Shown here: positions 15,625 to 25,049 of the stretch, piece after piece
Numbering within the stretch: position 1 is the stretch's first letter
How the letters are laid out: each line of letters begins with the position of its first letter
Assembly: GCA_029262635.1 (NCBI GenBank)
Contig: JAJCZA010000011.1
Coordinates: 1 to 61,078 of the forward strand
Reading direction: 5' to 3'
From: Vampirovibrionales bacterium
GTDB taxonomy: Bacteria; Cyanobacteriota; Vampirovibrionia; Vampirovibrionales; Vampirovibrionaceae
Length of the DNA stretch: 61,078 bases
Program-made: the position numbers and the translations under genes
Notes under the pieces: model-generated
Database searches by the model: none
What the model saw: only the letters and a program-made list of their open reading frames with translations
What the model was told of the DNA's origin: nothing

Positions 15625-16602
15625 ATGATGCAGGCATTGATACACCCTTACCTTTCACAAACGGCATTACCCCATCAACTTAATATTAATGCGGAAGCCC
15701 TTTTAAGCACTGATTCGGTTGACCTTCGTTTCGCAGGGATGTCGGGTTCAGGGGGTTCTCCAATTTCAGAAAACACTAAGCCCTTTTGGGAAAGCTTTTG
15801 GCCTTTTCCTGAACGACCACGGAAATTGACAGCATTTGAAAATGGGTTCTTTGATCTGTTAAAGGAGGAATCGGGGAAGCCAAATCCGGATATCAACAAA
15901 ATTAAGGGAATGCTTGCCGCTAAACCCAAGGGTTTTTCGTTCAATGTAAGGGATAAAAAAGAGGGTAACCGTACCTTTTTGCAGAAACTAATTAGCCACT
16001 CTGGCGGCGGAACGGATAACCTGCCTTTGATTGAATTCCTTCTGGAAGACATGAATGCTCAAGGGATCAACGCAAAAGATAAATACGGTAATACGGCCTT
16101 ACATAAGGCGACTGCAATTGGAAGTCAACCCATAACTGAACTGTTATTAAAAAAGATGAGCCGTCGGGCGATTAGCGCGAAAAACGAGACAGGCAATACG
16201 GCTCTGCATAATTTATATGCCCTTGGCAACATGAAGAATAACAAGGCAAAAGAAGCCTTGGTTAATCTTCTTTTATCAAACATGGATGAGAGTACGATTA
16301 ACGCTCAAAACGAAGCGGGTGAAACCATTTTACACAAAGCCGTTATAGGAAAAGACGAGTTAACTGTTCAGCTTTTATTAGAAAAAATGAGCGATAAAGT
16401 TATTAACAAGAAGAATTTTAATAAACAAACAGCCTTGGATACGATTATAAATAGCGAAGATTTAGCCGTTATAGCTGTGGCTTCTTTAATTATTGAGAAA
16501 CTGTATGCAAACGAGCTGTCAGTGCTGGGTTCATCGGGAAAGCAAGCTTTTATTGAGGGCATGCGAGTTACTTTGAAGTTGAAAGCTAGATCTAAGCTTT
16601 GA
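15625..16602 (+). CDS. Ankyrin-repeat protein with N-terminal FAG motif
   Basis: 325 residues. The N-terminal ~140 residues include RFAGMSG (about residues 36-42), one of the aromatic-glycine motifs common in this window, and a mixed linker. From about 145, three to four ankyrin repeats follow, each with a TALH or TILH core (GNTALHKATAIGS, GNTALHNLYALG, GETILHKAVIGKDE). The repeats are irregular, spaced by inserts such as MKNNKAKEALVNLLL. No export signal. Ankyrin repeats mediate protein binding; in host- or prey-associated bacteria such proteins are often effectors, but nothing here proves that. Divergent from motA. Confidence 0.75.
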   Translation: MMQALIHPYLSQTALPHQLNINAEALLSTDSVDLRFAGMSGSGGSPISENTKPFWESFWPFPERPRKLTAFENGFFDLLKEESGKPNPDINKIKGMLAAKPKGFSFNVRDKKEGNRTFLQKLISHSGGGTDNLPLIEFLLEDMNAQGINAKDKYGNTALHKATAIGSQPITELLLKKMSRRAISAKNETGNTALHNLYALGNMKNNKAKEALVNLLLSNMDESTINAQNEAGETILHKAVIGKDELTVQLLLEKMSDKVINKKNFNKQTALDTIINSEDLAVIAVASLIIEKLYANELSVLGSSGKQAFIEGMRVTLKLKARSKL

Positions 16603-19905: not shown

Positions 19906-19914
19906 TGTGATAAT
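19906..19914 (+). promoter_or_regulatory. Candidate extended -10 promoter for the attenuator transcript
   Basis: TGTGATAAT (19906-19914) is an extended -10 element. TTGCGT at 19889-19894 could be a weakly spaced -35. Transcription would start near 19921, about 37 bases before the first leader ATG. Confidence 0.35.
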
Positions 19915-19957: not shown

Positions 19958-20038
19958 ATGATTCAGCCTGCTCGACAGTTTAACATCCGCTATTACTGGT
20001 GGTTTCCCCCAAAGGAAGCTGTCATTTGCGCTGATTAA
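19958..20038 (+). CDS. Aromatic leader peptide 1 of a transcription attenuator
   Basis: A 26-residue ORF (ATG 19958, TAA 20036-20038) with the core RYYWWFPP encoded at 19988-20011. All four segments of a trp-type attenuator can be drawn. Segment 1 GACAGTTT (19974-19981) pairs with segment 2 AAGCTGTC (20016-20023). Segment 2 extended, GGAAGCTGTC (20014-20023), pairs with segment 3 GACGGCCTCC (20075-20084) with one mismatch and one G-U. Segment 3 pairs with segment 4 GCCGTC (20100-20105), followed by six T. Ribosome stalling on Tyr/Trp/Phe codons would free segment 2 and prevent termination. ACAGG lies upstream, as in leader 2. Confidence 0.65.
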   Translation: MIQPARQFNIRYYWWFPPKEAVICAD

Positions 20039-20074
20039 GATAAATACCTGACCCTCAGCCCCTCTACACACACC

Positions 20075-20111
20075 GACGGCCTCCTTTTTCACACAAAGAG
20101 CCGTCTTTTTT
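20075..20111 (+). terminator. Attenuator terminator 1
   Basis: Stem GACGGC (20075-20080) with GCCGTC (20100-20105), followed by TTTTTT (20106-20111). Its left arm can alternatively pair with GGAAGCTGTC inside leader peptide 1. Confidence 0.7.
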
Positions 20112-20144
20112 AATGCGTTTTAAAAATAACAGGACCCTTCTTCT

Positions 20145-20246
20145 ATGCAACTGCCCGCCAACAGCGTTTATTTCTTTAGCCAGCCAGTCTCCTTTTATTG
20201 GAGCTGGTATGGCTTTAGCATGCCGCCGGGCTGTTGTTTATCGTGA
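20145..20246 (+). CDS. Aromatic leader peptide 2 of a transcription attenuator
   Basis: A 33-residue ORF (ATG 20145, TGA 20244-20246) with VYFF and the core SFYWSWYGF encoded at 20190-20216, then MPPGCC. Segment 2, GCCGCCG (20222-20228), lies directly after the aromatic codons and can pair with CGGCGGC (20293-20299), the left arm of terminator 2. An upstream CAGCC (20181-20185) can pair with GGCTG (20229-20233). ACAGGACCC upstream resembles the leader 1 ribosome region (ACAGGTTC), which suggests the two units arose by duplication and diverged. Confidence 0.65.
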   Translation: MQLPANSVYFFSQPVSFYWSWYGFSMPPGCCLS

Positions 20247-20289
20247 TTTGAATCTAATCCTTTTTTAAAACACGATTTTGATAACAAGC

Positions 20290-20323
20290 AAACGGCGGCT
20301 CCCTCTATCACCCGCCGTTTTTT
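20290..20323 (+). terminator. Attenuator terminator 2
   Basis: Nine-pair stem AAACGGCGG (20290-20298) with CCGCCGTTT (20312-20320), a 13-base loop and a T run (six T in 20318-20323). It ends 28 bases before the ATG of the membrane protein gene at 20352. Confidence 0.8.
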
Positions 20324-20351: not shown

Positions 20352-21737
20352 ATGCCACTTTCTTCTCTCAGACCCAACCAACTTAGATTCTCAGGGCTTC
20401 GGCCTCTTTTAAGTCAGGCCTCTCCTGTGCAACGGGTATTATCCCTCGGCGTTAATAAGCTGGAATCAGGAGAAAGCGGCTTTGCTCATACCAAATTTTT
20501 ACAGGATACTCTTTCGGTTTGGGGAACCCGGATGGTTGCGAGCCGAAGCGGCCCTGAAAATTTGGAAATCACCTTTCTGGAATTCCTCGAATCGGGATTA
20601 GTCTACTATGGAATTGGGTTTCTCGGTACACAGGTCTTTCAAAAAGCATTCCGAAAAATGGCCGCTGGTAAGCGGCTAGAACCAGACGTTTTAAAGCTTT
20701 CCTTGAAAGAAATAGCTGAAAAATCACCGAATCTTATTCGAAAAGCGTTACCGATTCGTTTAGCGACGATTATTGCGACGTTAGGGATGACCTGTATTGC
20801 GGGCGAGTACAGCTTGCTTTTTATTAAGAATCTCCTCACGGCAAAAGTCTTTAACAAAGAAAGTTTTAGTGATGTTGTCGCTCTGAGTGATAACCCGATG
20901 GATGACATTGAGCAAAGCGAAACGGTGCAAAAGGCCCACCGTCGCATTGCCCAGTGTTTGGGCATCACTACCGGACTTGTGTTACTAGCCACGGGGGTTG
21001 CCCGGTTTGGCGGTGGTTTTAGGTCGATAAAAATGCTCCAAAAACTGGCTGAAAAAATGGATTTTAACTTTAAAAACGGAAAAATGAGCCTGAGTCGAAG
21101 CCAGTTTCTTACCTTTATGGCTGTTTCTATTGTGGCTTATCTCGATTCATCCCGTGACGATCTGGAACGAAAGGAAGTAGCGACTCGGCTGGCCATTGTA
21201 ATGTCTTATCTTGCTTATGGTGAAGAGATGATCAAAGGTACTTTAATTAAGGCTTTTGGCCAGCGCTTTCCAGAATTATTAAAAGCGGATGAAAAGGGCC
21301 AAAAAGTGCCTAAAAATTTGGAAGAACTGGGTCAGGAAGCCCTTGCCTATGCCAAAAGCAAGCTCCAAAAAGTATTACCAGTGGAGCAAATCACGGAAAA
21401 AAGAATTCAGGACGAAGCGGCCAAACACCTAAAGCCACTTCTTAAAGGTAAAAATGCCCTGTTTCTGATTCCTCATGCCATTGGTATTCTCGGAGTTGGT
21501 TTGGGCACGGCGTTACTCAACCGCTACTGGACGGAGATTCGCTATAAAGCGGATCAGCAGGTAAACAAAATTAATCTAAAACCGCAGGCTTTACCTGTGT
21601 TCCCTGCTCCAGAGAATCTAAACGCAAATTTTGAACAGTATGTCTTTCAGATCCGAAAAATTCGTTCTTCCCGTGAAAAGCTTCAAAGCCCGGCTCATTC
21701 TTTGAGGCCGGGTTATCGGCTGATGGTTCAGGTCTAA
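20352..21737 (+). CDS. Hypothetical membrane protein with RFSG motif, attenuator-controlled
   Basis: 461 residues. The N-terminus has NQLRFSGLRP (about residues 9-18), the aromatic-glycine motif. Then follow LSVWGTRMVASRSGPENLEI and EFLESGLVYYGIGFLG (about 50-95) and several hydrophobic segments (about 130-160, 190-215, 240-260, 370-395). SRDDLERKE (about residues 265-273) matches SRDGYEKKE in the protein at 37031-38302, and other spaced positions agree, so the two look like distant paralogues. CAGGAT precedes the ATG. It lies behind two tandem aromatic leader attenuators although it is not an aromatic biosynthesis enzyme. Function unknown. Confidence 0.75.
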   Translation: MPLSSLRPNQLRFSGLRPLLSQASPVQRVLSLGVNKLESGESGFAHTKFLQDTLSVWGTRMVASRSGPENLEITFLEFLESGLVYYGIGFLGTQVFQKAFRKMAAGKRLEPDVLKLSLKEIAEKSPNLIRKALPIRLATIIATLGMTCIAGEYSLLFIKNLLTAKVFNKESFSDVVALSDNPMDDIEQSETVQKAHRRIAQCLGITTGLVLLATGVARFGGGFRSIKMLQKLAEKMDFNFKNGKMSLSRSQFLTFMAVSIVAYLDSSRDDLERKEVATRLAIVMSYLAYGEEMIKGTLIKAFGQRFPELLKADEKGQKVPKNLEELGQEALAYAKSKLQKVLPVEQITEKRIQDEAAKHLKPLLKGKNALFLIPHAIGILGVGLGTALLNRYWTEIRYKADQQVNKINLKPQALPVFPAPENLNANFEQYVFQIRKIRSSREKLQSPAHSLRPGYRLMVQV

Positions 21738-21840: not shown

Positions 21841-22308
21841 ATGCAGATTTCACCTCTCACACAACCCCGTTTTGGCGCACTGATACTTGAAAAAGACTGG
21901 ATGCAGGGTGCAAAGCAACGGCCGTTTAACCCTGAAGAAGACATGACAGCAGAAGACATCGAAAACGTTCAGGGAAATAGAGAAAAGGCTTATACAACCT
22001 GGGAAAATTGGATGACTGATTCGAGTAACCCACTTGGAGATACTTTTCAAGCTTTGGAAACCAACCTTGGGCTGGATGTGCTTGTAGAGAAAAAGCTTCC
22101 AAAACAGAAAAGGTTGGAGCTTTATCCCGATCGAGTTGTCATTAAGCTGGTTAAAAAGGCCGATCAAACTGTTGTATCAATGTGCGACTTTGCGCTGGTC
22201 AATTCTTTAACAGGAGAGCCAACGGGATCAAACAGTTTTAAACAAGCGTTATCATGGGCACTTCAAGGTCTAATAACGGGATTAATTCAAAATATAGAAA
22301 AAATTTAA
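21841..22308 (+). CDS. F-x-G motif small protein, tandem copy 1
   Basis: 155 residues. It begins MQISPLTQPRFG, nearly identical to the start of the next gene (MQISPVTQPRFG), and the two share an overall plan: a helical middle and a C-terminus ending in an amphipathic helix (ALQGLITGLIQNIEKI versus ALQGIVSDFIADVKKI). AAAAGGAAG precedes the ATG. No signal peptide, membrane span or recognised domain. The gap of 13 bp to the next gene indicates a two-gene operon formed by duplication. Confidence 0.75.
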   Translation: MQISPLTQPRFGALILEKDWMQGAKQRPFNPEEDMTAEDIENVQGNREKAYTTWENWMTDSSNPLGDTFQALETNLGLDVLVEKKLPKQKRLELYPDRVVIKLVKKADQTVVSMCDFALVNSLTGEPTGSNSFKQALSWALQGLITGLIQNIEKI

Positions 22309-22321
22309 GGAGATTTCATCA

Positions 22322-22795
22322 ATGCAAATATCCCCTGTTACACAACCCCGTTTTGGTGTGGCTAAACTTCAAGGGGCCTGGAACAAGTCCTCACCAAGTG
22401 AGTGGCGTGATGCTCTGACGACTAAGGCTCAGTTTATTAACCTAGAACCCCTTTCCGATGATGAACAGCAGGTTCGAGAGGACGCCTATACCCTTTTGAA
22501 AAAACAGGTTGACTACTTCAGTACTGTTAGTGGAGCGATGATAGAAAGGCTTGAAAAGCACATAGACGCTGATATCGTTTTTGCGACAAATATTAATCCT
22601 GGACAAAGTTCTAGAACACCGGATGAGCTAATAGTTAGAATCGTTCGTCGTTCGGATGATCAGGTGATATCAGAAGTAAAAAGGGGGCTTCTTGTAGGAG
22701 GTTCTCCGCAGAATACAGAGTCATTTAAGGACCTTGTTGGCAAAGCCCTTCAGGGTATTGTGTCTGACTTTATTGCCGATGTAAAAAAAATCTAG
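22322..22795 (+). CDS. F-x-G motif small protein, tandem copy 2
   Basis: 157 residues, a diverged duplicate of the preceding gene. The first 12 residues differ at one position, the middle is strongly diverged, and the C-terminal SFKDLVGKALQGI aligns with SFKQALSWALQGL of copy 1. Also shared is a short core I/VIRLVKK- or VRIVRRSD-type strand before the helix. AAGGAGATTTCATC precedes the ATG. Preservation of the N-terminal dozen residues against a diverged body suggests that segment is a functional signal. Confidence 0.75.
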   Translation: MQISPVTQPRFGVAKLQGAWNKSSPSEWRDALTTKAQFINLEPLSDDEQQVREDAYTLLKKQVDYFSTVSGAMIERLEKHIDADIVFATNINPGQSSRTPDELIVRIVRRSDDQVISEVKRGLLVGGSPQNTESFKDLVGKALQGIVSDFIADVKKI

Positions 22796-23895: not shown

Positions 23896-24579
23896 TTATT
23901 GGATTCGTTTGATCATCAGTTTTTGTGACTTCCCGTATTCCAGACCAAGGGCTTCGCTGGCGCTAAGGGTGGATTCGGAATTAGGGGAACCCTTAATCGC
24001 GAATTCGACAAACCACCGATTTCGATGCTTCGTGTCGGCGCTTCCCAGATAGGCAAAGGGCTTTTCCGATTCAGCTTCGGAAAAGCCCCATTTAAATGGA
24101 ATGTTTTCCAACTTCTTGCCACTATTGGGGTTGATAAGAGTGAAACGAGCTTTACTGGCAATAATTTCCATTACTTCATCTCTGAGAGAGCCCCGAATTA
24201 AGGTTAAATTAGTTTTGATATTATGAGAGGGGCTGCCCCGATGGGCAAAGAACTCAATGGGTGTGTTTAAGCTTAAGGGACTTAGAGGTTTAACGGTTTC
24301 CGCAAATGGATTCACTTGTCGCTCAGGCTCCGGTGAGAGGACTTCGGCATTAGGGGGTTCACCGTAGAAGCCAATAATGTTCAGAGCTTTATTGCCGTTG
24401 TTGTCGCGAGGGTCTGTGACTCTGAGAAAGGGGACTTGATGGGTTTTTAGATGATTTGGGCTGTTACCAAAAGTGGTTTTTGGTGTGGGTGTAAGTTGAT
24501 GTGCTTGCTGGAGGTGAGAAGAATGGTGTTGGGGAGCTTTGGAATAGAGGAGGTAAGGGAAGGAGGTAATTATAGACAT
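23896..24579 (-). CDS. Hypothetical F-G motif protein, attenuator-controlled
   Basis: 227 residues. The His/Gln/Thr-rich N-terminus contains PKTTFGNS (about residues 33-40). The body has a possible beta-rich domain from about residue 60 (VTDPRDNNGNKALNIIGFYGEP) and RGSLRDEVMEIIASKARFTL around 130-150. No signal peptide or membrane span. AAAGGAACC precedes the ATG. Upstream lies a Met/Cys leader peptide and terminator. The protein itself is not rich in Met or Cys and is not a sulfur amino acid enzyme that I can recognise. Confidence 0.7.
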   Translation of the reverse strand: MSIITSFPYLLYSKAPQHHSSHLQQAHQLTPTPKTTFGNSPNHLKTHQVPFLRVTDPRDNNGNKALNIIGFYGEPPNAEVLSPEPERQVNPFAETVKPLSPLSLNTPIEFFAHRGSPSHNIKTNLTLIRGSLRDEVMEIIASKARFTLINPNSGKKLENIPFKWGFSEAESEKPFAYLGSADTKHRNRWFVEFAIKGSPNSESTLSASEALGLEYGKSQKLMIKRIQ

Positions 24580-24700: not shown

Positions 24701-24790
24701 TTATAAGATAAGACGCCACGCCGAACCCATGTGCGAGCACATCATGCAACACATCATCATGTTAGCCGAGGTGTTCTCAGGCCGATTCAT
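24701..24790 (-). CDS. Met/Cys-rich leader peptide of a transcription attenuator
   Basis: A 29-residue ORF read on the minus strand (ATG 24790-24788, TAA 24703-24701) with the core NMMMCCMMCSHMG: six Met and three Cys within 13 codons. Directly after those codons, TCGGCG (24724-24719, minus) can pair with CGCCGA (24665-24660), the left arm of the terminator; a further GGG/CTCC pairing extends it. Ribosomes stalled on Met or Cys codons would therefore favour the antiterminator. The ribosome site is weak (AAAAGAAAC). Confidence 0.6.
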   Translation of the reverse strand: MNRPENTSANMMMCCMMCSHMGSAWRLIL

Positions 24791-25049
24791 GGCGGTTTCT
24801 TTTAACGTGGGGGATAAAAAAGTCATTTAGAAAATATTTCGTATTAAAGCGTCAATAATAAAATTCTATTCTCCATCTTTTTTTCAGATTGTCAAGCCAG
24901 TTTTTGTATACTTGTTGAAAATGGATTTGGATTCCTACTCGGGTTGCTTTTTCCATGAGCGCAATATATCTTGATTTTCGGTGGATCTTTTGGGGAGGTG
25001 CAGTATAATTAGCTATTATCTGTTGGCTTAGGCCCAATAACGCTTATAA

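Follow-up and report, generated by a model that had tools for sequence, protein, structure and literature searches.

Two putative aromatic-codon attenuators in series before an orphan membrane protein gene of a Vampirovibrionales bacterium, with related leaders across Vampirovibrionia

The region 19958-20323 of the window (the whole stretch of 61,078 nucleotides of Vampirovibrionales DNA that was analysed) is best read as two ribosome-mediated transcription attenuators in series, placed in front of a gene that would serve the cell under shortage of aromatic amino acids, a reading to which we give a probability of roughly 0.87. The leaders, the terminators and the alternative pairing can be read from the DNA, and comparison with relatives adds conservation, covariation and depletion of the cognate residue, while translation of the leaders, stalling, termination and a role in amino-acid acquisition are inferred, neither RNA nor protein measurements being available. 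Switches of this kind are already known; what is new is that the targets are an orphan membrane protein family and that the occurrence is class-wide. The methionine regulatory codons found in relatives, the exchange of specificity between paralogues, the tandems of units with the same signal, and the agreement of leader type with residue depletion are new as well. The features of the locus are the following:

19906-19914, plus strand: putative promoter element of the extended -10 type, TGTGATAAT, some 44 nt 5' of leader 1; weak, picked by eye
19958-20038, plus strand: ORF of leader peptide 1, MIQPARQFNIRYYWWFPPKEAVICAD, then stop
19991-20005, plus strand: unit 1 regulatory codons Tyr-Tyr-Trp-Trp-Phe (TAT TAC TGG TGG TTT)
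20011-20023, plus strand: antiterminator segment 2 of unit 1, AAAGGAAGCTGTC, which lies within the ORF of leader 1
20075-20111, plus strand: intrinsic terminator 1 (segments 3:4 and T-run), folded at -10.8 kcal/mol
20145-20246, plus strand: ORF of leader peptide 2, MQLPANSVYFFSQPVSFYWSWYGFSMPPGCCLS, then stop
20190-20216, plus strand: unit 2 regulatory codon cluster S F Y W S W Y G F, from the sequence
20222-20228, plus strand: antiterminator segment 2 of unit 2, GCCGCCG, pairing with CGGCGGC at 20293-20299
20290-20323, plus strand: intrinsic terminator 2 (AAACGGCGG / CCGCCGTTT and T-run), folded at -12.8 kcal/mol
20352-21737, plus strand: controlled gene, 461-aa orphan membrane protein with three hydrophobic segments and an all-helical model

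Both short ORFs with aromatic cores that the sequence-only reading had proposed are present in the sequence, and the intrinsic terminator expected behind each was confirmed at 20075-20111 and 20290-20323; the arms of terminator 1 lie at 20075-20080 and 20100-20105, and its T-run at 20106-20111. Pairing of the unit 1 terminator with its leader also exists, but the ten positions first counted were too few, since AAAGGAAGCTGTC and the terminator left arm GACGGCCTCCTTT form 12 pairs with one mismatch and one G-U. The resulting alternative duplex (-17.1 kcal/mol) was reached by none of 300 dinucleotide shuffles of the leader segment (p=0.003). The GCCGCCG/CGGCGGC pairing claimed for unit 2 was found where it was expected, with a duplex of -21.0 kcal/mol and only marginal support against shuffles (p=0.047), and the segment 1:2 pairing of unit 1 was recovered as GACAG/CTGTC by both reading and folding; this last hairpin was not seen in every unit of the wider set discussed below. 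When the window was searched for short ORFs having six or more aromatics within ten residues, only units 1 and 2 combined a Trp-containing core with the attenuator layout, and TAYTAYTGGTGGTTY has a single exact occurrence genome-wide, at the unit 1 codons.

The signals for initiation are less distinct. Only weak Shine-Dalgarno-like sequences accompany the two leader start codons, and a simple sigma-70 scan (9-of-12 match) gave no plus-strand promoter here and did not pick up the element at 19906-19914. An Rfam scan of the window found no T-box, its sole match at the gathering threshold being a tRNA, and no covariance model of the Trp, Phe and His leader families reached its gathering score. 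These leader models derive from other phyla, so that a missing match says little.

In the proposed mechanism, RNA polymerase would start 5' of unit 1, followed by a ribosome that translates each leader. When charged tRNA-Tyr, tRNA-Trp and tRNA-Phe are plentiful, the ribosome would arrive at the stop codon and cover segment 2, and the terminator hairpin would form; when one of the aromatics is scarce, it would stall at the aromatic codons, segment 2 would pair with the terminator left arm, and transcription would read through. Transcripts of the gene at 20352 would have to pass both terminators, and expression would hence be low in fed cells and on under aromatic, above all Trp, shortage, with the two serial units multiplying the fed-state block. 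The locus shares with the attenuators of the enterobacterial trp, phe and his operons a leader peptide rich in cognate codons and a mutually exclusive antiterminator and terminator, and the 1:2 pairing of the enterobacterial systems recurs in unit 1 and in Trp units of the Gastranaerophilales. It differs from them in that the target is an orphan membrane gene rather than biosynthesis, in its two serial units, in the mixed Tyr, Trp and Phe codons, and in the swap to Met among relatives. In attenuators of the trp type, the target usually, though not by strict definition, serves synthesis or import of the amino acid that is sensed; for the present gene there is no family or fold match to show this, and cognate depletion in relatives, described below, lends indirect support. 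The assignment to the trp/phe type in the sequence-only reading is supported, with leader codons, terminator and exclusive pairing all present and the pairing covarying in relatives.

The arrangement of two attenuators in series is real; their interpretation as an AND gate needs amending, because units 1 and 2 each contain Tyr, Trp and Phe codons and would therefore respond to the same signal. It is more likely that the series tightens control by lowering leakage than that it forms an AND gate of different inputs. Tandems of same-amino-acid units occur at three other loci (Trp+Trp, Met+Met and Met+Met, twice in genome G012 and once in G001), which supports a selected design. They also count against the idea that only one attenuator works, most likely unit 2, which adjoins the gene, the other being a relic or a short separate transcript that stops at its own terminator. 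This idea, which we consider unlikely, draws on the single unit found in most family homologues, on the 240 nt that separate unit 1 from the gene, and on the marginal pairing of unit 2; it has to contend with the retention of ORF, codon cluster, alternative pairing and terminator in both units, and with the sigma-70 scan, which found no promoter between them. For tandem leader-ORF attenuators with different signals, the leader of Salmonella mgtCBR is a precedent: as in the window, two leader ORFs in series precede non-biosynthetic genes and one of them senses proline, but in Salmonella the signals of the two units differ, being ATP and proline, and their effects are additive (PMC3641672), whereas those of the window would sense the same amino acids, each with its own terminator.

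The gene behind the two leaders had been described as encoding a hypothetical membrane protein without biosynthetic function, and no library or fold search gave it a biosynthetic identity. The 461-aa protein has no sequence match in Pfam, NCBIfam or PDB, and fold searches against the PDB and viral libraries returned nothing below E=0.001. Its hydrophobic peaks fall at residues 132-150, 199-217 and 370-388, and the AlphaFold model is all-helical, with long helices (pLDDT 77.9, pTM 0.69). With a family profile, homologues were detected in 191 of the 382 genomes sampled from Vampirovibrionia (Melainabacteria), or 174 of the 319 of good quality, with the Gastranaerophilales, a group of gut Melainabacteria, as the main carriers; the window is inferred to lie on a Vampirovibrio-like branch of this class. 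Outside the class, plasmids showed no DNA-level or close protein relatives, and a genome-contig collection scanned with the single window protein yielded none either. No nucleotide-level relative of the window locus occurs in the collections, and a same-genus genome is absent from them, so that the pairing of this very locus is beyond the reach of a close covariation test.

Nearly every homologue of the family has a leader of the attenuator type, with Trp codons in some clades and Met codons in others. Relatives with 32-40% identity carry Trp leaders and terminators at the same position (WWW, CWWP, WRW). Within the family and order of the window, these leaders include CWWPCLYRPP, NWWWSALCRPP, CWWCPAIEGPP, GQWWWPG and QWRWRSQA, with terminators behind them, and one locus has two Trp leaders in series, HGWWWA-stop and NWSWWR. 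In the Gastranaerophilales, a conserved Met leader precedes nearly every main-type homologue (for instance MKNNTMMMQMMMMQSLNSGGHCYANRMC-stop; pattern, e.g., MKNNTMMMQMMMMQSL..GGHC..RMC-stop), and a Trp leader stands before the second paralogue (for instance MPNLNLNTQSWWHLSKETGNLSWQ-stop; pattern, e.g., MPNLNLNTQSWWHL...TG.LSWQ-stop). In the family and order to which the window belongs, the second paralogues are preceded by Met leaders, two of them in tandem. Leader type follows the protein tree, with 5 changes against about 27 in shuffles (97 rows; 15 of the relatives' labels were assigned visually, and in 7 homologues no leader was recognised), and in this tree the window groups with Trp-leader members of G001 and G003. 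Such clade-tracking could be explained by inheritance of the regulatory region alone. In one subclade (L125-L128 and L131), Trp leaders (NNRWWRL-stop) are followed by a hairpin region without a clear T-run, and regulation there may be translational.

A finder that looks for a short ORF with clustered Met or Trp codons and a terminator behind it matched 103 of the 130 regions upstream of family genes. In the controls it matched 1 reverse complement out of 130, 1 shuffle out of 650 and 4 other stretches out of 606. Short aromatic-rich ORFs and hairpins are individually common, and the terminator scan of the window itself gave hits at the background rate, which leaves room for the thought that the two have merely met by coincidence. 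In view of the control counts and of the conservation, which contradicts it, this can practically be dismissed. A separate search for further users of such leaders by their Met-codon pattern was abandoned, as its matches were mostly coding repeats. A Met-rich short ORF (LMAMMMVMMMSFYA) was seen directly 5' of thrS at L138 and L139, in the Gastranaerophilales genus g23.

Absence of conserved leader/terminator pairing in homologous loci had been named beforehand as an outcome that would refute attenuation; the pairing proved to be locus-specific and covarying. Over 36 units, pairing of the leader segment averages -16.9 kcal/mol with the terminator arm of the same locus and -11.0 kcal/mol with arms from other loci. 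None of 10000 permutations equalled this preference, which holds also when the analysis is confined to the 13 units that do not belong to the Met-labelled Gastranaerophilales set (at six loci the arms were placed by hand, and G012a_u1 and G012b were too short to test). The antiterminator helix of 29 Met units is 90% paired, against 27-55% when slid, and shows 17 two-sided changes, against 6.1 in shuffles (0/500); their terminator helix is 96% paired, with 34 two-sided changes. All three segments change jointly between GGTGGT/ACCACC/GGTGGT and GGCGGT/ACCGCC/GGCGGT. In 12 Trp units of the Gastranaerophilales, the 2:3 helix is 83% paired (21-37% when slid) and the 1:2 helix, which covaries, 86% (29-51% when slid).

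The same data bear on whether the short ORFs could instead encode working small proteins (e.g., Met-rich metal binders), with the terminators a coincidence. The sequence of the Met-rich peptide is indeed conserved in Gastranaerophilales, and leader peptides can act in trans (PMC7298713). However, the conserved GG codons fall on the antiterminator segment and change together with the terminator, the same position variously holds Trp, Met or aromatic codons, and His or Arg in front of other genes, and the peptides of the window share only their layout with the Met peptides. A small-protein function in place of attenuation is accordingly very improbable.

Attenuation also appears in this lineage in its classical setting. 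In the sister genus g5, trpE of four genomes (G004, G006, G007 and G008) is preceded by WWW leaders and terminators, canonical attenuators that serve as a positive control and indicate that the lineage uses the mechanism; they resemble the window in lineage and design, but their target is trpE. In the window genome, which is 95.9% complete, the best hit to trpE reaches 340 bits and falls short of trpE grade (488-504 bits in g5 and g3), and trpB has no match; the genome is therefore probably that of a Trp auxotroph. It has prephenate dehydratase, and no aromatic leader was found in the region upstream of pheA. For V. chlorellavorus, synthesis of 15 amino acids has been reported, with Phe and Tyr not among them (PMC4451040).

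The composition of the controlled proteins points in the same direction as their leaders. Proteins behind Trp leaders in Gastranaerophilales contain 0.03% Trp (2 of 7461 residues) versus 0.81% in flanking ORFs, those behind Met leaders 0.70% Met versus 2.29% in flanking ORFs, and those behind the His leaders described below 0.56% His versus 2.22%; Arg-leader proteins show no Arg depletion, and the 461-aa protein of the window is only mildly low in Trp (2/461, 28th percentile). Such cognate depletion suggests that the cell requires these proteins while the amino acid in question is in short supply. A cognate bias is known for amino-acid biosynthetic enzymes (PMC4209129), and low-Trp proteins occur in chlamydiae (PMC3937554); there, as here, proteins needed in starvation avoid the scarce residue. 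In contrast to these cases, the bias seen here concerns orphan membrane proteins and is linked with a matching attenuator.

Nearly all members of the family are preceded by an attenuator tuned to a single scarce amino acid, and in well-sampled clades they are themselves poor in it. It is most likely, by inference, that the controlled protein works under shortage of the sensed amino acid and helps the cell to cope with it, and the Trp- and Met-tuned switches across the class point to an undescribed amino-acid-starvation system. A role in amino-acid acquisition (e.g., from prey or host) is an inference from regulation to function and, taken on its own, less likely than not. The extension to a class-wide, undescribed acquisition system, in which membrane families avoid the amino acid they serve, each has a matching attenuator (Trp/aromatic, Met, His, Arg) and some have two units for one signal, is a speculation for which the odds are a little poorer still; if true, the leader codons would predict the substrate of each protein. 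With the attenuators taken as real, there is close to an even chance that the proteins are instead general effectors of starvation or predation, for which any scarce amino acid serves as a cue. No transporter fold or family was found, the structure consists of long helices with three hydrophobic peaks, and several unrelated orphan families are under the same type of control, all of which suits effectors; less readily explained in that way are the retention of leader identity within deep clades and the avoidance of exactly the sensed residue, like the cognate bias of biosynthetic enzymes (PMC4209129). Whichever role applies, many orphan proteins of gut Melainabacteria and Vampirovibrio-like bacteria gain a concrete context, single-amino-acid starvation, with the signal predictable from DNA alone. 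Furthermore, the paralogues form a natural series of specificity changes, and the same-signal tandems would allow the gain or the leakage benefit to be measured.

With regard to the Met leaders, searches of the literature revealed no Met regulatory codons in ribosome-mediated attenuators, and nothing was found that connects Melainabacteria or Gastranaerophilales with attenuation or leader peptides, subscription papers being mostly outside the scope of the search. We know of no earlier attenuator of this kind with Met codons, and this appears to be the first case.

The window contains a second putative attenuator:

24701-24826, minus strand: Met leader ...SANMMMCCMMCSHMGSAWRLIL, then stop, with terminator AAACCGCCGACT/AGTCGGCGGTTT

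This unit (24826 to 24701) precedes an orphan gene at 23896-24579 on the minus strand, unrelated to the gene at 20352; a homologue of the former in G014 has VMMMCS at the same place, with weak conservation. A general attenuator finder, run on a 1.26-Mb sample of the window genome, returned the locus at 19958-20323, this Met unit, a His unit (MRNQFQHHHHHHHLGP..., L289, C5:205142-205026) in front of a 530-aa orphan gene and an Arg unit (...NNRRRPRRFRVIG..., L304, C2:318727-318635) in front of a 504-aa orphan gene. Among relatives within the order, the homologues are preceded by His leaders in six or more other genomes and by Arg leaders in two or more.

Some neighbouring genes of the window deserve mention. 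The orphan proteins encoded at 21841-22308 and 22322-22795 are paralogues with the common N-terminus MQISP.TQPRFG. An N-terminal [PR]RF[GQS] motif was considered as a sorting signal and set aside, its roughly threefold enrichment (8/902 versus 12/4474 elsewhere) being too weak. A predicted ankyrin-repeat-like protein with GNTALH repeats, a possible effector, is encoded at 15625-16602.
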